Source: Lentisphaeria bacterium (GTDB lineage Bacteria > Verrucomicrobiota > Lentisphaeria > Oligosphaerales > Oligosphaeraceae). From it: a DNA stretch of 35,737 nt. Every line of letters starts with the position of its first letter. Position 1 is the stretch's first letter. Location of the stretch: positions 1-35,737 of the forward strand of contig JAKSPB010000032.1 in the NCBI GenBank assembly GCA_024405215.1. The letters run 5' to 3'. The notes below the pieces were generated by a model. The model saw nothing but the letters and a program-made list of their open reading frames with translations. It had not been told where the DNA came from and ran no database searches. A program made the translations under genes and the position numbers. This document shows, piece by piece, positions 27,112 through 35,726 of this stretch.

Positions 27112-28182
27112 CTAACAACTATTCCCAGGCGCCGCAACAGATGCGCGTTTGATGAGCAGCGGTTGCAGGCGTTGCTGCAGAAACACTTCGCCACGCATGC
27201 GGCGGAACGCCTGGGGAATTGCCTGCAGCAGCTTTTCCGTCAGTTCGGTCACGGGATAGCGCACCGTTGTCATGGCGGGGGACAGGAAGGCGCAGCCGTG
27301 TGTGTCATCGAATCCCACGAGGCTGAAGTCCCGCGGGATTTCCAGATTATAGTCAAAGGCGTAATCATACAAGTCCATTGCCATCGGATAGCGCATACAG
27401 GCAAAGGCGGTGACCTTATGCGTGAGGGCGAATTCATTGAAATAGAGTTCGGAAATATGCCGATAGTCAAGGCAGGCGGGAATCCAAGGACGCTCCAAGG
27501 CGATATCCCGTTCGCCCAGATAGTCGGACAATCCTCGGAAACGCTCTTCGAATTCCGGATAGTCGTCGCGGTTCAATACGGCGGTGATTTTCCGATGTCC
27601 CGCCTGATAGAGGGTTTCCCCCATCAGGCGCCCTGCCTGATAGTTGTCGGGCATCAGCCAATTGGCGAAATTGACGTTGAAGTTGATGGCGATAATGTTA
27701 TGGGAGCACTCGCTGATCTTCTTCAGAAGTCCCGGTGCAAGGAAGAGGCCGAAAACGACAACTACATCCGTTTCCTTGAAACGCTCGGGCAGGCGTGGAT
27801 TCGTTCCGGCCGTCACGAACATCCTGATGACTGTCGTATTGCCAAAGCGGCTGATGATGCCCTCGATCATCGTCCGATAGGTCAGATTGACATAGCCATC
27901 TGAGTTCATTAGCAAAATGATTCTGCGCGAGGCGGTATCCTTATCGTCATTCTGCTCCGTGACAGATACATAGACCTGGCGATTGTCACGCGTCAAGACG
28001 CCAAGGCGTACCAGCTCTTCCAGATTCTTGTGGACAGTCGGACGGCTGAAACCGTATTTCACGCACAAGGTCCGCTCCGACGGCAACTTCTCTCCAGGCG
28101 AATAGACACCATTGTTGATGTCTTGCATCAGAAGCATCCCGAAGCTGTTCTTCTTCAGATTCTCCGCAAAATCAAATTCCAT
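27112..28182 (-). CDS. GntR/LacI-hybrid transcriptional regulator
   Basis: 356 residues. The N-terminal winged helix (about 8-72) shows the GntR pattern SPGEKLPSERTLCVKYGFSR followed by PTVHKNLEELVRLGVL. The remainder (from RRIILLMNSDGY) is a LacI/periplasmic-binding-type sensor domain, with WLMPDNYQAGRLMGETL, SLVGFDDTHGCAFL and MTTVRYPVTELTEKLL, as in AraR-type repressors that bind a sugar. It is divergent from the pseudopilin gene across a region full of TTACCA/TGGTAA boxes, the likely operators. The ATG at 28182 has GGGAG 6 bases upstream, while the ATG at 28188 directly abuts it, so I chose 28182. The ligand is unknown. Confidence 0.9.
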   Translation of the reverse strand: MEFDFAENLKKNSFGMLLMQDINNGVYSPGEKLPSERTLCVKYGFSRPTVHKNLEELVRLGVLTRDNRQVYVSVTEQNDDKDTASRRIILLMNSDGYVNLTYRTMIEGIISRFGNTTVIRMFVTAGTNPRLPERFKETDVVVVFGLFLAPGLLKKISECSHNIIAINFNVNFANWLMPDNYQAGRLMGETLYQAGHRKITAVLNRDDYPEFEERFRGLSDYLGERDIALERPWIPACLDYRHISELYFNEFALTHKVTAFACMRYPMAMDLYDYAFDYNLEIPRDFSLVGFDDTHGCAFLSPAMTTVRYPVTELTEKLLQAIPQAFRRMRGEVFLQQRLQPLLIKRASVAAPGNSC

Positions 28183-28264
28183 TGTCATCTCCCATGGTGC
28201 TCCTAAAGGCGAGAACGCAGAATGTCCTCTTCTCTTGGTAGTTGTTTAATTGTGTCGTTTGGAT

Positions 28265-28284
28265 TTACCAATTCCCTTTGGTAA
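28265..28284. promoter_or_regulatory. Candidate operator 1: TTACCAA-N6-TTGGTAA
   Basis: Perfect 7-bp inverted repeat, 83 bases upstream of the regulator start codon. The position suits autoregulation of the regulator gene. Confidence 0.6.
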
Positions 28285-28459
28285 GAAAGCAAACCAGAAT
28301 TTATCCATAAACGAGAACATAAATTACCAAATTAGACGTGTTTTGTCTTTTGTAAAAGATTTTAATTCCTTTACTTGCAAAATGTTATTTTGTATTCTAC
28401 AATCTTATGACAAGAAAAATCGCAATTGTAAAAAAATAAAATGAATTTTGCTGAATCTC

Positions 28460-28488
28460 TTGAAAATCATTCGGAATTGTCCTATACT
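28460..28488 (+). promoter_or_regulatory. Promoter of the pseudopilin gene
   Basis: TTGAAA (28460-28465), 17-base spacer, TATACT (28483-28488), a good housekeeping-type match. Transcription would start near 28495 and leave a leader of about 134 bases before the ATG at 28629. Confidence 0.7.
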
Positions 28489-28504
28489 ATAGCCGAGGTT
28501 TGAA

Positions 28505-28542
28505 GAATTTACCATTGAATTTTTACAATGGTAATTCTTTTT
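28505..28542 (+). promoter_or_regulatory. Candidate operator 2 and leader hairpin followed by U-run
   Basis: TTACCATTG (28509-28517) and CAATGGTAA (28526-28534) form a perfect 9-bp inverted repeat with an 8-base gap. Together with flanking GAAT/ATTC the RNA can form a stem of about 12 bp with one bulged U, followed by TTTTT (28538-28542). It begins about 10 bases after the expected transcription start. It could act as a DNA operator (roadblock), as an attenuator-like terminator, or both. A further half-site TTACCA follows at 28541-28546. Confidence 0.6.
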
Positions 28543-28628
28543 ACCACAAATGTCTTTTTGTTCCCTAGTAGAAGAGCATTTCCTGTTCTTCTTTTTCCTA
28601 AAAAACAACCAAAGGAGTCTTACCAACG

Positions 28629-29477
28629 ATGAAGAAATCCTTCACACTGATTGAATTGCTGGTGGTCATCGCCATCATCGCCATCCTGGCCAGCATGCTT
28701 CTCCCCGCGCTTTCCAAGGCCCGCGAGAAGGCCCGTGCCATCAGCTGCATCAACAACCTGAAGCAGGTCCAGCTTGGCAACATCCTGTATGCCAACGATT
28801 CTGACGATTATCTGCTTCCCATCTGCTACTCCGCCAAGGATCCCAGCCAGACTGGCTGGGCAGCCCGCAACGACTATCTGACCAACTGGCGTTCCGCGAC
28901 CTGGAACAGCCTGAATCCCCTGCTGCCCGGCGCTCCCATGTACGGCGACGAGTTCCTGGCCAAGGACCCCCGTGCGAAGATGACCCCGACCAATGCTCCC
29001 GATGGCACTGACGGCTCCAGCTGGCACAAGTTCTACATGTGCCCCTCCTGCCCCACCAGCGACCGCGCCGGCATGAACTGCTCCTATCAGTGCAATCTGG
29101 GCATGGGTTTCAACGAGGAAATCTATGCCAGCGGCACCATGGATGAAGACAGTGCGCAGTGCAACAAGTCCGCCACCTGGCACCGCATCGCTTCCATCAA
29201 GTATCCCAGCATCTACGTGAACTTCCTGGATGGCGTTGGCATTGAAAGCAATGGCATCACCAATTGGGCCACTCCCGGCGACCTGATGGCCCGCGGCATT
29301 GAAGTCAAGGCCAAGTACTTCCGCCATAGCAACAACTGCAACTTCGCCCTGGGCGACGGCCACGTGGAGGCTGTGAGCATTTCCAAGGCTGTTGACGGTA
29401 CCACCGAGGGCTATCTGCGCCGCGCCTACTACTGGTATCCCGGCACCCAGGCTTGGGGTGGTGACAAGAACCGCTAA
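28629..29477 (+). CDS. Type II/IV pseudopilin-like protein with H-X9-DG tail
   Basis: 282 residues. The N-terminus [19 protein letters not shown] is the prepilin cleavage/methylation helix, with Glu at +5. The position before Phe is Ser rather than the usual Gly. [12 protein letters not shown] and INNLKQ follow, a pattern shared by the large DUF1559-like pseudopilin families of PVC bacteria. Near the C-terminus His233 is followed nine residues later by Asp-Gly (243-244, in GDGHVEAV), the H-X9-DG signature. The protein would insert in the inner membrane and be assembled or secreted by a type II/IV-like system; its real role is unknown. AAGGAG precedes the start, and a TTACCAA box (28620-28626) lies between them. 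It has its own promoter and terminator. Confidence 0.9.
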
Positions 29478-29498
29478 TCGTTTCGTCTGTTTGCAATT

Positions 29499-29540
29499 CA
29501 TGTCTCCATGGCGCATGCCGTGGGACATGGATTTTTTGTT
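29499..29540 (+). terminator. Intrinsic terminator after the pseudopilin gene
   Basis: CATGTCTCCATGGC (29499-29512) pairs with GCCGTGGGACATG (29517-29529): 13 pairs, one bulged T, one G-U, and loop GCAT. GATTTTTTGTTTC follows. Only about 30 bases remain to the next start codon, so downstream expression would need read-through or a promoter inside the pseudopilin gene. Confidence 0.85.
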
Positions 29541-29569
29541 TCTTGCATTTTTCCTCTTGTTTTTCTGCC

Positions 29570-32041
29570 ATGAAAAGAATCCTGTTGGCTCTTCTGGCTG
29601 GAGTATCGCTCATGGGTGCCATGAAACCGAATGAAAATCTTCTCCTGAATGGAGATTTTGAAGAACTCCAGCTGGGCTTCCCGCCCTATTGGGAACGAAC
29701 CGATTTCCAAGATATGATTTTCCTTTGGACAGAGGGACCGGAAGCCTCCGGCGTCCTCCGTTTCCAGAGCAGTGGCATTTCCAAGACCCGTCCTGTCGTC
29801 ATGCAAAAAGGAACCCGATTGGTTCCCGGCGAAAGATATTCCCTCTCCATTCTGGTCCGCGCCAATGACTTCCGGGCGTCCAAGGTCTGCTTTGGGCTGA
29901 GGCCATCTTCCGACGAAAACGCCAATTGGACCGGAATTTCCGAATTCCCGGAAAACTGCGACGAATGGACGGAACTCCATTTTGAACTGACCGCGCCGCC
30001 CTCCCCGAACGGCAAATACGATGTCGCCATTTTCCTGGAACGCTTCTCCGGGCGCCTGGACGTGGCCCAAGCCCGTCTGCACGCCCTGTCGGACAAGGCC
30101 CTGGCCTATTCGCTCCCCACGGAAGGAGTCTCCTTTGAGACCCCACCTCGCATTTTCCCCTATTCGCCACTGTTGCAGGAGATCCCGGCAGAGAAGCCAG
30201 TTCTGTTTTTCCGACGCGGTGGTTTTTCCCGAAGCATTGCCGATGACCCCGCGAGAGAATTGGAGGCGGTCTTCGCCGTGGACGGCGTTGAAATCGCCAG
30301 AATGGCGGCGACGGAAGAAATCCCCTGCCCCTTGGCTGGAATCCCCCAGGGAACCCATTTGCTCCATGTGGAATTGCGCAGAAAAGACAACGGCGAGACC
30401 ATTTTCCGGCGAGATCATGAAATCCGCATCGTTTCCGCCCCTTCCTGGAATCCCACTCCGGGCAGACGTCTGAACAACTTCGTGGTGGAACTTCTGAATC
30501 GGGAGTTCAAAGCGGAAGAACAGGAAGAAATCGTGCTTGCACAGGAGAAATGGCTCTTTGTCCAGGCAGAAAATGGGCTCCTTCTGGATGGCGAGATCCT
30601 CGACGGCGAAAATTTCCGACTGCTTGCGGCAGGCCCACATGTCCTGAAGGCCCTCGTGGATGGACACGTCGTTGTCCGCGCCGTTTCAGAGATCTTCCAC
30701 AGCGCGGTCTGCGAAAGCAACCATGTTCGGCAGAATTCGCGCTACGACTGGAAGTTCTCGCGCAAATACGTTTTCCCGGCCTTGACGACCGCAAATCGCT
30801 TTGCCTGCCCCGAAGAACACCTGGAGGAATGGAAGGCAGGAAAACTGCGCTGGCTGGGAAACATCGTCACCGTGGACGCAAAGGATGCCGCGGATTTCCG
30901 AAAGCGTCTGGATGACTCCAAAGAACTGCACGACGCCCTCCACAATGGCGTGACGCTGGACGAGCACTACTACTCCCAGGACGTCATGCCCGCCGTGGCA
31001 GACGTGCTATGGAACTACCCGGTACCGGCAGGCAAGCTGCTCTACACATGGACCACCGGCCTGCCCGACATCCACAACGCCATCGCCCTGGAACACATCT
31101 CCGCCGTCTTCAATTCGGCAAAGAGCAAGTCGCTTCTGCTGGTGGAATCCTACTGCGCCAGCCAGGAGACGCAGAAACTCATGTCGGAATACCTCCATCG
31201 GCGCCTGAACCATTGCTACAACGCCTACAAAGCGGCAAATCCGGCCGCGCCCCGGAAGGTCGCCCTGATTCTCGGCAATTTCTCGCAGCCGCCGCTCTAT
31301 TCGCTGGACGCGCTTCCCGAAGTGGATTTCAAATACGCCCTGGACATGCAGCTGCATCATCTGGCCACGGATCCGGATTTCGTGGATATGCCGGCCATCG
31401 GATATTGGGGAAACCACTACACCACCGAAGAGATGTACCGCTGGTCCGCGAAGCTCCTCCGGCACTACTGCGTCGAAGGAAAGACGACTTTGCTTTCCGA
31501 GGAGTTTGGCTTCCAATACCTCCCTGGACATCTTCATAACGGAGACTTCCGGGAGCATTTCGAGAAGTGGGAGGTGCGCACAGGCAAAGGCGGACAAGCG
31601 CGGTGGGATGTAGTCTCCGCGCTCTACGGACGACTTCGCTGGGGCTCCCAGGTCCAGAACGGAACCACTTGCTGCGTCTTCGTCCGCGGAGAGACTGCCT
31701 CCCAGGTCAGCCAGCGCATCACGGGCCTCACTCCCGGACGCCCCTATGTCCTGCAATTCGTCACCGGCGATTACGACTCCCTGCGCAAAGGACAGTATGT
31801 CAACAGGACGCATCATGTGGACGCGACCCTCAGCGAAGAGGTGGATACCCTCTCCCGATTCCTGATCGATGGCTCATTGGCGCTTAGCGACTGGGATCGT
31901 CACAGCGTAAAAATCCATTACTGGCGCTTCATTCCCAAGACAGACAGCATGACCGTCACCTTCTCCGATGAAACTGCAGAACCGGGAGACAGCTTCACTT
32001 TGAACTACATTTCCGTCAAACCTTATTTTGCCGCGGAATAG
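29570..32041 (+). CDS. Large secreted protein, possible glycoside hydrolase with two carbohydrate-binding-like domains
   Basis: 823 residues with a signal peptide (MKRILLALLAGVSLMGA). The N-terminal domain opens NLLLNGDFEELQLGFPPYW, the pattern of CBM4/9-like carbohydrate-binding modules. A second such block, HNGDFREHFEKWEV, starts near residue 655 and leads into a C-terminal beta-sandwich. In between, after a beta-rich region (GPHVLKALVDGHVVVRAV), lies a section that looks like a TIM barrel. It has TLDEHYYSQD near 463 and LLSEEFGFQY near 642, acidic residues in places where an acid/base and a nucleophile could sit. I cannot assign a GH family. No Shine-Dalgarno is obvious at the ATG at 29570. 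The position behind the pseudopilin gene suggests shared control by the GntR/LacI regulator. Confidence 0.7.
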   Translation: MKRILLALLAGVSLMGAMKPNENLLLNGDFEELQLGFPPYWERTDFQDMIFLWTEGPEASGVLRFQSSGISKTRPVVMQKGTRLVPGERYSLSILVRANDFRASKVCFGLRPSSDENANWTGISEFPENCDEWTELHFELTAPPSPNGKYDVAIFLERFSGRLDVAQARLHALSDKALAYSLPTEGVSFETPPRIFPYSPLLQEIPAEKPVLFFRRGGFSRSIADDPARELEAVFAVDGVEIARMAATEEIPCPLAGIPQGTHLLHVELRRKDNGETIFRRDHEIRIVSAPSWNPTPGRRLNNFVVELLNREFKAEEQEEIVLAQEKWLFVQAENGLLLDGEILDGENFRLLAAGPHVLKALVDGHVVVRAVSEIFHSAVCESNHVRQNSRYDWKFSRKYVFPALTTANRFACPEEHLEEWKAGKLRWLGNIVTVDAKDAADFRKRLDDSKELHDALHNGVTLDEHYYSQDVMPAVADVLWNYPVPAGKLLYTWTTGLPDIHNAIALEHISAVFNSAKSKSLLLVESYCASQETQKLMSEYLHRRLNHCYNAYKAANPAAPRKVALILGNFSQPPLYSLDALPEVDFKYALDMQLHHLATDPDFVDMPAIGYWGNHYTTEEMYRWSAKLLRHYCVEGKTTLLSEEFGFQYLPGHLHNGDFREHFEKWEVRTGKGGQARWDVVSALYGRLRWGSQVQNGTTCCVFVRGETASQVSQRITGLTPGRPYVLQFVTGDYDSLRKGQYVNRTHHVDATLSEEVDTLSRFLIDGSLALSDWDRHSVKIHYWRFIPKTDSMTVTFSDETAEPGDSFTLNYISVKPYFAAE

Positions 32042-32206
32042 GAAATTGCTTTTTGCGAAAGGGGCAATCAAAGGACCTTGAGCTGGTTCTTCTCCTGAAT
32101 CGCTACGCCGCATCAAAGAAAATCACGTTCTGAAGAAGAGTTTTCCCGCCGTGCGCTATGTTATCGGAAATGACATTTTTTCGTCAAAACCATACCTTGG
32201 CAAACA

Positions 32207-33010
32207 ATGAGTGCTTCTTCTGAATTTCAGCGGCTGGCGGATGTAGTCCGTCGCCTGCGCCAGCCTGACGGCTGCCCTTGGGACAAATTCCAGACACACG
32301 ATTCCATCAAGCGGAATCTCGTGGAGGAATCCGGCGAGTTTCTGGATGCGCTGGAGGACCGCAATCTGGAGGGAATGCGCGAAGAGCTGGGCGACCTGAT
32401 GCTCCAGGTCCTCTTCCACGCGCAGATCGCCTCGGAACAGGGCGAGTTCACGCTGGAGGAAATCTGCAAGGAGGAGGCGGACAAGCTGATCCGGCGCCAT
32501 CCACACGTCTTCGGCGAGAATCACGCCGACAACGCGGTGGAGGCGCTGAATCGGTGGGAGCAGTCCAAAGTGGGCGAAGCGGGCGAACAGTCCCGTCGCA
32601 AGTCCGTGATGGACGGCGTGCCGCGCTCCATGCCGGGGCTCTCCCGCGCCCAGAAGGCGCAGACGAAGGCCGGTAGAAACGGCTTCGAATGGCCCGAGGC
32701 GACGCGGCTGCAGGATGCTCTCGCAAAGGTGGACGAGGAGCTTGCGGAAGTGAAGGAGGCCCTTGCGGAGGACAATGCCGAACACGTGGCCGAGGAACTG
32801 GGCGACCTGCTCTTCGTGGTGACGAATGTGGCGCGGATTCGCGGCCTGGAGGGCGAAGAGCTGCTTCACGCGGCCGTCCGCAAGTTCATCCGCCGTTTCC
32901 AGTATATGGAGAAAGCCACTGCCGAGGCCGGCTGCAAAATGACCGACAACTCTTCCGCGGAATGGACCGCCCTCTGGCAGAAAGCCAAGAAGGACGCATC
33001 ACTTCGATAA
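32207..33010 (+). CDS. mazG: Nucleoside triphosphate pyrophosphohydrolase MazG
   Basis: 267-residue all-alpha NTP pyrophosphatase that converts NTPs to NMPs and PPi, a house-cleaning role. The start is typical: LADVVRRLRQPDGCPWDKFQTHDSI, then the metal-binding helices EESGEFLDAL and EELGDLMLQVLFHAQ. The second repeat carries KVDEELAEVKEAL and EELGDLLFVVTNVAR. Both MazG repeats are present, as in E. coli MazG (263 aa). The start is the ATG at 32207. The 165-base gap in front contains no convincing terminator or promoter. A different frame within this gene stays open into the next gene, but it is not coding. Confidence 0.97.
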   Translation: MSASSEFQRLADVVRRLRQPDGCPWDKFQTHDSIKRNLVEESGEFLDALEDRNLEGMREELGDLMLQVLFHAQIASEQGEFTLEEICKEEADKLIRRHPHVFGENHADNAVEALNRWEQSKVGEAGEQSRRKSVMDGVPRSMPGLSRAQKAQTKAGRNGFEWPEATRLQDALAKVDEELAEVKEALAEDNAEHVAEELGDLLFVVTNVARIRGLEGEELLHAAVRKFIRRFQYMEKATAEAGCKMTDNSSAEWTALWQKAKKDASLR

Positions 33011-33078
33011 AATACAACATACAACTGAGTCTTTTGCAAAAGTCTCAACTACTCCCGAAATCGAAAACAACTTCAATC

Positions 33079-34794
33079 ATGGCAAATTTCTGTTATCAAC
33101 CCATCGTCGCCGCAGAATTGTGGAAGCGGCGTTCCCTGCTGGAACTCTATCCCTTTGACGGCGGCGGCGGATTCATCAACCGCGCCCTGCTCGGCTCCAT
33201 CGACGACCGTGAAATCCGCCGCAAGTTCCTTTCCGGCGAACTCTCCAAGTTCGTGGATTTCCCGAATATGGATTTCCACCGCTATGAGCGCTGGCGCTCC
33301 ATCGAGCTGAGCTGCTGGATCAACCGCTGCTATCTGGTTGCCTGTCTGGCGCACGCCGCGTGGCTGGAGAAGGACAAGGCCCTGGCCAACATCCTGAAGG
33401 ACACCATGCTGCACTTTATCGACACCTGCCCGCCTCCCGGAAACGGCGACCCGAAGGAGCTGGAGGCCCACTGGCAGCGCGTCCTGTATCGGATGAACCA
33501 CGACTACAACGAAAAGACCTACGCCGAATACAGTGTCGACGAGACGGACGTGGAATACATCTGGTATGACTTCCAGCCCGCAAGCCGCGTCATCCATTTC
33601 CTGCACACGCTCTATTTCATCAAGGACCTGGCGGATTTCAAGCCCGGCGAATTCGATCGCATCTTGGACGGCATCCGGCTGCACGGGCACATCCTCTATC
33701 TGCAGGAAAAGGCCCATCCCCATAAAAAGGGAAACCACCAGTCCGTCCGCCAGATCGGGCTTCTTCATGTCGCATCAGCCTTTGAAGAAGACGACGAGAT
33801 CCGCGAATGGAAGAAGCTGGCGCTGAACCGCAGCGCCTGGCACGCAACAACCGACTTCTTCGAAAACGGCGTCCTCTTCGAGGGCTCCCCCTCCTACCAC
33901 TCCTTCGAGACGTGGCATGGCCGCGATGCCATGGCGTTTGCCAAACTCTTCGGAATGCCGCTGGAGCCCGAGGCGGAGCGTCGTTTCAAGCTGGCCGGAG
34001 AGGTCCTGGCGACCTACCGCCGCCCCGACGGCAAGACGCTCGTCATCAACGACGCCTATCCGCTGCTGCCCGACGGCCTGCTGGAGTCCATGGGCATTGA
34101 TGCGCAGGCACAGCCGAAGACCTCCTACCTGGGGTTGGGCGGCCTGGCGGTCTGGCGCGGAAAACGCCTCTACGCCGCACTGGATGTCTCTTCCTTCACG
34201 GGACAGTTCTCACACTACCACGGTGGAAAGAACGCGCTGATGCTTTTCGTGGACGGCGAGGCCTTCCTGGATGATCCAGGCTGCTGCAATTACGACGATT
34301 CCAGCTTCCGCACCTGCAAGCAGGCGACCGCCCATAGCTCCATGATGGTGGACGATACGCCAGACGCCCATTCCTTCAGCCTCTACGGCTGGGATTCCTA
34401 TCCGGAATTCCTCCTGAAACCCTGGGACGGGAACCGCTTCCAGGCGGTCATGCACTCCACTACGCCCGAATGGAAGGACGTGGAATGGAGCCGCGAAATC
34501 GTCTGCGAAGAGGACGCCTTGACCTTGAACGACGTCGTGTCCGCGCCATTGGAACACGTCTATGAGCTGCACTTCACCCTCGCCCCCGGCATCGCCATCC
34601 GCAAGAGCGACGACGGCTTCGTGCTGCAGAGCGCAAAGAACACGCTGGAGATTCTGCTGAAAGGCGACTTTACCTGCGAAATCGTCGATGGCGAGAACTA
34701 CCAGACCGAGCCCGCCCTGCCCGTCAAACAGCTGCGCTTGAAATTCCCCCAGGCGGCTCTGATGAAAAACACCATCCGGTTCGTGGTGAAATAA
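33079..34794 (+). CDS. Heparinase II/III-like polysaccharide lyase, no signal peptide
   Basis: 571 residues. The N-terminal part is helical, as expected for an alpha/alpha toroid, and contains KKGNHQSVRQIGLL near residue 217, the catalytic-type Asn-His region of heparinase II/III and alginate-lyase families. The C-terminal beta-sandwich has FTGQFSHYHGGKNALMLFVDGE (His near 377), FLDDPGCCNYDD and KQATAHSSMMVDD. This is the classical heparinase II/III pattern with a repeating His-Asp-Gly arrangement. Such enzymes cleave uronic-acid-containing polymers by beta-elimination; the substrate is not known. The N-terminus MANFCYQPIVAAELWKRRS has no signal peptide, implying cytoplasmic action on imported oligosaccharides or a wrong start. 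The ATG at 33079 is preferred over upstream frame extension into mazG. Confidence 0.85.
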   Translation: MANFCYQPIVAAELWKRRSLLELYPFDGGGGFINRALLGSIDDREIRRKFLSGELSKFVDFPNMDFHRYERWRSIELSCWINRCYLVACLAHAAWLEKDKALANILKDTMLHFIDTCPPPGNGDPKELEAHWQRVLYRMNHDYNEKTYAEYSVDETDVEYIWYDFQPASRVIHFLHTLYFIKDLADFKPGEFDRILDGIRLHGHILYLQEKAHPHKKGNHQSVRQIGLLHVASAFEEDDEIREWKKLALNRSAWHATTDFFENGVLFEGSPSYHSFETWHGRDAMAFAKLFGMPLEPEAERRFKLAGEVLATYRRPDGKTLVINDAYPLLPDGLLESMGIDAQAQPKTSYLGLGGLAVWRGKRLYAALDVSSFTGQFSHYHGGKNALMLFVDGEAFLDDPGCCNYDDSSFRTCKQATAHSSMMVDDTPDAHSFSLYGWDSYPEFLLKPWDGNRFQAVMHSTTPEWKDVEWSREIVCEEDALTLNDVVSAPLEHVYELHFTLAPGIAIRKSDDGFVLQSAKNTLEILLKGDFTCEIVDGENYQTEPALPVKQLRLKFPQAALMKNTIRFVVK

Positions 34795-34880: not shown

Positions 34881-35726
34881 CTATTCCACTTCCACGTGGC
34901 CGTCCAGATATACGGTAATCGGCTTGTGGACCTTATGATTGTGGCATGTCACCAGGGGGAAAGTCGCCGGAGATTCCACGTCCGACATTTTCAGCCCTTC
35001 GGGAATTACCGCGAAATCATAATACTCTGCGGTTTCATCTCTTTGACAGTGAAGGACTTTTTCGGAAGCTTCCTTTCCGAAACATTCTCTGACGCAGGCG
35101 GGAATGTCTGCGGGAAGACAATCGTCATTGTCATCGGCATAGAGAATGACACACAATCCTATTTGCTTCAGGTTGTTAACACAATAGGTTTGCTTGGCTT
35201 TGGGGCGGCTCTTTGCGGAAAGCAGCGGAAGAAGTGCCAGGAGCAGGACAAAAAGGAGAACTATGACTGCAAGGAGTATTGCAAAAATCACACCAAAACT
35301 TTTGCCTGGCTTTCTGTCGGGATTGCCGATGGGATCCTCGCCATAACGATTGGGGCCGATGTCGCCTGCCGTAAGGACCAGTGCCAGAAGGTATAGGCCG
35401 TAAACATTCGCCACAAGGGAGAATACGACTCCATAGGCTGCCAACAGAGGGAATAAAAAGTAAAAAACGTAAAACCAGCCCCCCAACCAGCCGCTGCGAT
35501 TGGTGTCGTGCAGACGACGGATGAGCACCGCCAGGCCAGGGAAGAAGAAGACAATGGCAGGAATATAGCTAAAAACTGTTGGAGCCGATGGAAATAGCCA
35601 GTATTTTAGCGAGAAGTAAAGCAAACAGAAGATGACAGTGAGCCAGAAATACGTCCAGAATTCAGCACGCCGCGCGCGTCCGGAATAGTGGAAGGCATCC
35701 TTGAAGCATTTTATGAACCAGCTCAT
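34881..35726 (-). CDS. DUF805 membrane protein fused to a pseudopilin-like C-terminal domain
   Basis: 281 residues. Residues 1-135 form a DUF805 domain: GRARRAEFW (16-24), several membrane helices, RRLHDTNRSGW (70-80) and GPNRYGEDP (124-132). A further strongly hydrophobic helix (about 144-170) is then followed by AKSRPKAKQTYCVNNLKQIG, LCVILYADDNDDCLP and a terminal YLDGHVEVE. This second part parallels the pseudopilin at 28629, which has [36 protein letters not shown] and DGHVEAV. So a pseudopilin body appears attached to a multi-pass membrane anchor in place of its cleavable helix. The start ATG at 35726 lies 11 bases from the window edge. Function unknown. Confidence 0.85.
   Translation of the reverse strand: MSWFIKCFKDAFHYSGRARRAEFWTYFWLTVIFCLLYFSLKYWLFPSAPTVFSYIPAIVFFFPGLAVLIRRLHDTNRSGWLGGWFYVFYFLFPLLAAYGVVFSLVANVYGLYLLALVLTAGDIGPNRYGEDPIGNPDRKPGKSFGVIFAILLAVIVLLFVLLLALLPLLSAKSRPKAKQTYCVNNLKQIGLCVILYADDNDDCLPADIPACVRECFGKEASEKVLHCQRDETAEYYDFAVIPEGLKMSDVESPATFPLVTCHNHKVHKPITVYLDGHVEVE

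Follow-up and report, generated by a model that had tools for sequence, protein, structure and literature searches.

A headless pilin body behind a DUF805 membrane domain in Lentisphaeria and its relatives on other anchors

DUF1559/H-X9-DG pseudopilins (PF07596, TIGR04294) of Planctomycetes, Lentisphaerae and Verrucomicrobia are among the largest paralogue groups of these phyla, with 68 in Planctopirus limnophila, and their function is unknown (PMC10632474; for the number and unknown function of DUF1559 paralogues, also PMC2754498). A gene of a Lentisphaeria bacterium raises the question of what such a pilin body does when it lacks the prepilin head and follows a multi-pass membrane domain. 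The window analysed here (35,737 nucleotides) is an entire contig, C26, of a 2.98-Mb genome in 82 contigs. A sequence-only reading of this DNA had proposed that the product may act, permanently anchored, as partner, template or receptor of the pseudopilins and knew of no described function for such a fusion. Our literature search likewise found none, nor any report on headless pilin bodies or linking DUF805 or DUF4190 with pilins. The features discussed below are as follows.

34881..35726, minus strand: fusion gene, 281 amino acids, DUF805 plus fifth membrane helix (TM5) plus headless pilin body (open reading frame, profile and pairwise comparison)
35337..35693, minus strand: DUF805 domain, residues 12–130, about four predicted membrane helices (Pfam; AF2)
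35298..35336, minus strand: linker, residues 131–143, within GPNRYGEDPIGNPDRKPGKS, common to all four fusions
35214..35297, minus strand: fifth membrane helix, residues 144–171, counterpart of pilin α1-N without the FTLIE motif
35112..35213, minus strand: pilin α1-C part, residues 172–205, with LLSAK...CVNNLKQIGLCVILYADDNDDCLP and C182
34884..35114, minus strand: globular body, residues 205–281, with C227, H264 and the D275-G276-H277-V278 motif
28629..29477, plus strand: ordinary prepilin for comparison, N_methyl plus DUF1559 with FTLIE head (Pfam, NCBIfam)

A DUF805 domain joined to a pilin body

Pfam matched DUF805 (PF05656) at residues 12–130 (E = 1.4e-17; 64.6 bits against a cut-off of 25.7) over positions 2–111 of the 111-position profile, confirming the domain that had been placed in front of the pilin-like half. 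The C-terminal half carries, in order, a hydrophobic helix (residues 144–171), LLPLLSAK, CVNNLKQ (C182), ILYADDNDDCLP and DGHVEV. DUF1559/H-X9-DG pseudopilins share with the fusion an α1 with LLPAL, CxNNLKQ, YADDN, CP and a terminal DGHVE, whereas the fusion has no prepilin leader, no E5 and a short body, and is tied to a multi-pass domain. At the position of KSFTLIEL in the window's prepilin the fusion reads KSFGVIFA, so that the FTLIE head and with it E5 are missing, and neither N_methyl nor TIGR02532 matched it in Pfam and NCBIfam scans, so no class III signal peptide was found and the reported lack of a leader was borne out. The window fusion also fell below the DUF1559 cut-off in Pfam (E = 0.059; 13.8 bits against 23.3), and NCBIfam returned neither TIGR04294 (H-X9-DG) nor any other match in the C-terminal part. 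The spacing of the H-X-DG motif is H-X10-DG in the window copy (H264, D275) and H-X9-DG in its paralogues, as read from the sequence. An AF2 model of the full protein had five well-predicted helices, with a pLDDT of about 70–91 in DUF805 and mostly below 50 in the body. Modelling the body alone with two sequences gave a pLDDT of 50, and a PDB fold search with the full-length model, whose body is of low confidence, returned no match.

A genuine gene, found in one genus

The start codon of the fusion lies 11 bases from the end of the contig, a position that might point to two genes joined in assembly, which the sequence-only reading had named as an outcome that would undo it. The DUF805 domain is nevertheless complete, and the paralogues start at nearly the same residue. 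Two further full-length fusions are encoded in the same genome, on contigs C35 and C33 (41% and 35% identity to the window protein), and a fourth in G304, one of the two other genomes of the genus. With one full-length copy on each of three contigs and a further one in another assembly, the probability of a join is negligible, and the listing of genomes with both domains in one gene, proposed earlier as a check, thus yielded the fusion's own genome (three genes) and its congener (one).

Full-length combinations of DUF805 and body were absent outside the genus both from a family search (29 genomes, E 1e-15) and from a phylum sample (289 genomes, E 1e-18). Among the matches listed from a named collection, which was scanned with patterns that fell within DUF805, there was one full-length DUF805 fusion, in a horse-faeces MAG of Lentisphaeria (L074). 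Within the genomes searched, we found the DUF805 version of the headless body confined to one genus. Grouping of the four DUF805 bodies as one clade is compatible with the data (AU test, p = 0.71), so that a single fusion followed by duplication suffices. This narrow distribution, with the third genome of the genus (88% complete) lacking a DUF805 fusion, would suit a functionless relic of a fusion event, which we nonetheless consider improbable: there are three intact paralogues plus one in the congener, and divergence at codon positions 2, 1 and 3 was 0.20–0.39, 0.34–0.53 and 0.59–0.68, in the same order in both halves. Position 2 is thus the least and position 3 the most divergent, the pattern of purifying selection, in the DUF805 half and the body half alike.

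The three fusion genes are scattered in the genome. The window copy has a heparinase II/III gene beside it and lies at the contig end, one paralogue follows an acyl-CoA ligase-like gene and the other sits among biosynthetic genes. Pilus assembly genes are found on contigs C23, C44, C22 and C34 of the same genome, which also encodes prepilin peptidases, two GspF/PilC-type genes and two further T2SSF pairs. No pilus assembly gene adjoined an own-genome fusion copy in the stretches read.

Several observations concern ordinary, headed pilins. The window's prepilin gene lies between genes for a GntR/LacI-type regulator (27112–28188) and a CBM_4_9 protein (29543–32041), near the heparinase II/III gene, and the stretch 27112–34794 resembles a locus for glycan use that has a pseudopilin of its own. 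In a set of 45 prepilins, comprising this one (28629–29477) and the headed pilins of fetched loci, residue −1 of FTLIE was not Gly, Ala or Ser in 17 (E, K, P, Q, L, R, N or D instead); the prepilin peptidase of Lentisphaeria may have a wider specificity. The gene for a short headed pilin of genome G046 adjoins a Wzy_C ligase gene and not secretion genes. Viral contigs carried headed prepilins only and no headless bodies; several of the IMG/VR contigs (L160, L168, L170, L174, L182, L185, L191 and L202) have, side by side, two prepilin genes of the H-X9-DG type that resemble one another across contigs and may be viral or part of a host stretch.

Homology to pilins along α1

Pairwise comparison of the window's prepilin with the fusion gave 50% identity over 70 amino acids (E = 1e-14), in a match that begins at KSFTLIE/KSFGVIF, spans the helix and ends at YADDNDD. 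A search of the own genome returned 62 matching stretches in total, mostly in other pilin-like frames. Against PDB chains, a profile built from ten headless bodies, all without an intact FTLIE head, aligned along α1 with geopilin (9egp, E = 2.5e-4) and GspG (5wda, E = 4.6e-4); the four DUF805 proteins alone placed the same two pilins on top, more weakly (0.81 for geopilin and a marginal 0.058 for GspG). In hhalign, the headless profile matched the window pilin at 98.4%. Pairwise and profile comparison together show that α1 of the fusion is homologous to pilin α1. The suggestion that the C-terminal half is of pilin origin was upheld for this helix, and of the profile match proposed as its check, the Pfam DUF1559 part stayed below cut-off while profiles built here find pilins along α1.

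For the globular part, profile matches are mainly with further headless bodies, and those with headed pilins are weak. A profile of this part from the four DUF805 proteins, without α1, found headless bodies behind other anchors at E values up to 2.4e-14, whereas its best headed pilin scored 0.011 and shuffled controls began at 0.3. The window fusion matched the globular-part profile, which includes the window sequence itself, at E = 2.2e-21, and with no prepilin head it falls within the headless set. In the tree, a few headless bodies fall together with headed pilins from the same genome. Genome G305 provides a case: a headed pilin is 63% identical to a headless protein over 118 amino acids, a second headless protein groups with that pair, and what precedes this much-alike body is in turn a prepilin head, a lipobox-like stretch or some large ectodomain. 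The headless bodies as a whole are compatible with one origin or several (AU test of a single origin, p = 0.145).

The same homology raises the question of whether the DUF805 domain is a giant leader, with prepilin peptidase cleaving at KS|F ahead of the fifth helix to release an ordinary pilin. The start of that helix, KSFGVIF, is close to KSFTLIE of the genome's own pilins, which have S at −1 in 14 of 17 sampled. We judge this very unlikely, as the site is not kept in the paralogues (CFAGCAI, KLPDFLPS, SAGCFIA) and E5 is absent from all four fusions.

Headless bodies across the class

We call a body headless when no FTLIE-like motif precedes it. Across 198 genomes of the class, the globular-part profile (E 1e-8) gave 80 matches in 56 genomes, 79 of them headless, a proportion to be read with the profile's own descent from headless bodies, which it favours, and with the scoring of only the best first-look candidates per genome; even so, headed candidates in the class number many thousands. 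In 388 genomes of the phylum (E 1e-9) there were 39 matches in 30 genomes, and those read were all headless.

At least nine unrelated anchors or partners carry the headless body. Pfam identified TM2, DUF4190, zinc ribbon, AXE1 (5.6e-32 and 2.4e-29), LysM and DUF4878 partners, and inspection added lone helices, lipoboxes (L226, L243, L246, L266, L275 and L228), Sec signals alone (L227, L254 and L273) and an ectodomain of about 400 amino acids. Domains flank the body on both sides in L252, and L257 has two domain–body units in tandem. The TM2 and DUF4190 proteins (L037, L039, L032, L055 and L059) resemble the fusion in that a small polytopic domain is followed by a short headless body, and differ in the membrane domain itself and in often having an N-terminal zinc ribbon; DUF805, TM2 and DUF4190 seem to occupy one and the same slot. 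The TM2 form also occurs in G083, a single-contig genome, so such fusions are not joins. Some TM2, DUF4190 and ectodomain relatives pass the DUF1559 cut-off in Pfam, and TM2 and DUF4190 architectures of this kind may therefore already be listed in domain databases.

AXE1 (acetylxylan esterase) proteins with a C-terminal headless body are encoded at L241:85-1773, L244:82-1770 and L247:320-1981 (assigned by Pfam in L241 and L247, by likeness in L244), all in the window's family of genomes. DUF4878/NTF2-like domains adjoin headless bodies in L251:4278-5399, L252 and both tandem units of L257. The ectodomain form occurs in many genera of the class (L054, L056, L057, L061, L062, L066, L070, L216, L228 and L232), with a signal peptide in most and no Pfam name where scanned. 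Tandem pairs or triples of headless-body genes were seen in L030 (G144:C70), L032/L279 (G118:C117) and L251 (G295:C29), and in L024, L027 and L031 zinc ribbons or a GYF-like stretch precede DUF805 and a pilin body is absent.

The P that precedes the globular part is conserved in every one of 84 headless bodies, DG in 83 and DGH in 79; LLPAL is lost in paralogue C. The first Cys is present in 74 of 84 and the Cys of CP in 70 of 76. Both Cys occur in 66 bodies, the first only in 8, the second only in 4 and neither in 6, a tendency to be kept or lost jointly (Fisher p = 0.001, without tree correction). A disulfide between C182 and C227 is the simple reading of the paired Cys and would probably help to keep the body folded. 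Like the lipobox and Sec forms, such a bond would place the body outside the cytoplasm.

Proposed role of the body

The reading we favour, with moderate confidence, is that a pilin body has been reused as a non-polymerizing extracytoplasmic binding domain, fixed here to the inner membrane on DUF805 and TM5. The four helices of DUF805 and a fifth, the former α1-N helix of the pilin, would hold the body outside the cytoplasm; helix count and a positive linker suggest the periplasmic side, where unassembled pilin bodies lie. DUF805 would serve as anchor or coupling part. With leader and E5 gone and the N terminus occupied by DUF805, the body could presumably not be cleaved, extracted or polymerized, in agreement with the sequence-only reading, which had denied the protein pilin-like polymerization. 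The body itself would be a binding module for a ligand, a glycan or a protein partner: it is retained whether the partner is a membrane anchor, a lipoprotein or an enzyme domain, which argues for an activity of its own that is useful without a filament, and binding is the most economical reading.

What the body might bind bears on the idea of a permanently anchored partner, template or receptor that meets H-X9-DG pseudopilins through body-to-body contacts. The pilin origin of the body, the GspF/PilC-type genes and T2SSF pairs of the genome and the distribution of headless bodies, which are absent from all 32 genomes that have fewer than 25 pilin candidates and present in 56 of the remaining 166, are consistent with it. 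Genomes with headless bodies have a median of 118 pilin candidates against 73.5 (p = 7e-4, uncorrected for phylogeny and genome size); pilin number tracks genome size and descent, and the association with pilin-rich genomes is weak. The same bodies, however, occur on lipobox and esterase-domain proteins, the globular part has diverged from headed pilins and the own copies have no assembly genes beside them in the stretches read. A role dedicated to pseudopilins, as first proposed, is not supported, the body being shared by so many unrelated partners, and we regard the anchored partner as unlikely. Given the association with pilin-rich genomes, a pseudopilin-binding role is possible. We entertain, tentatively, a portable docking or recognition module on membrane anchors, lipoproteins and carbohydrate esterases that would dock on a pseudopilus or on the ligands bound by the many H-X9-DG pseudopilins.

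Discussion

In the modular pilins known, such as PilB of Streptococcus sanguinis, a pilin module precedes the unrelated domain to which it is joined (PMC8179133). Their N-terminal pilin module is cleaved and polymerized, whereas in the fusion the extra domain is N-terminal and would block both. DUF805 proteins (PF05656), for which E. coli was one of the control genomes to give a match, share the four-helix domain with its RRLHD motif. Most of the fetched examples stop at about 115–160 amino acids, whereas the fusion continues with a pilin body. Judged by the range of its partners, the headless pilin body appears to be a general-purpose extracytoplasmic domain in Lentisphaeria. A headless, non-polymerizing version separates the function of the body from that of the filament, and the lipobox, Sec-only and esterase-domain versions should express easily, which would make the ligand or partner of the body directly testable.
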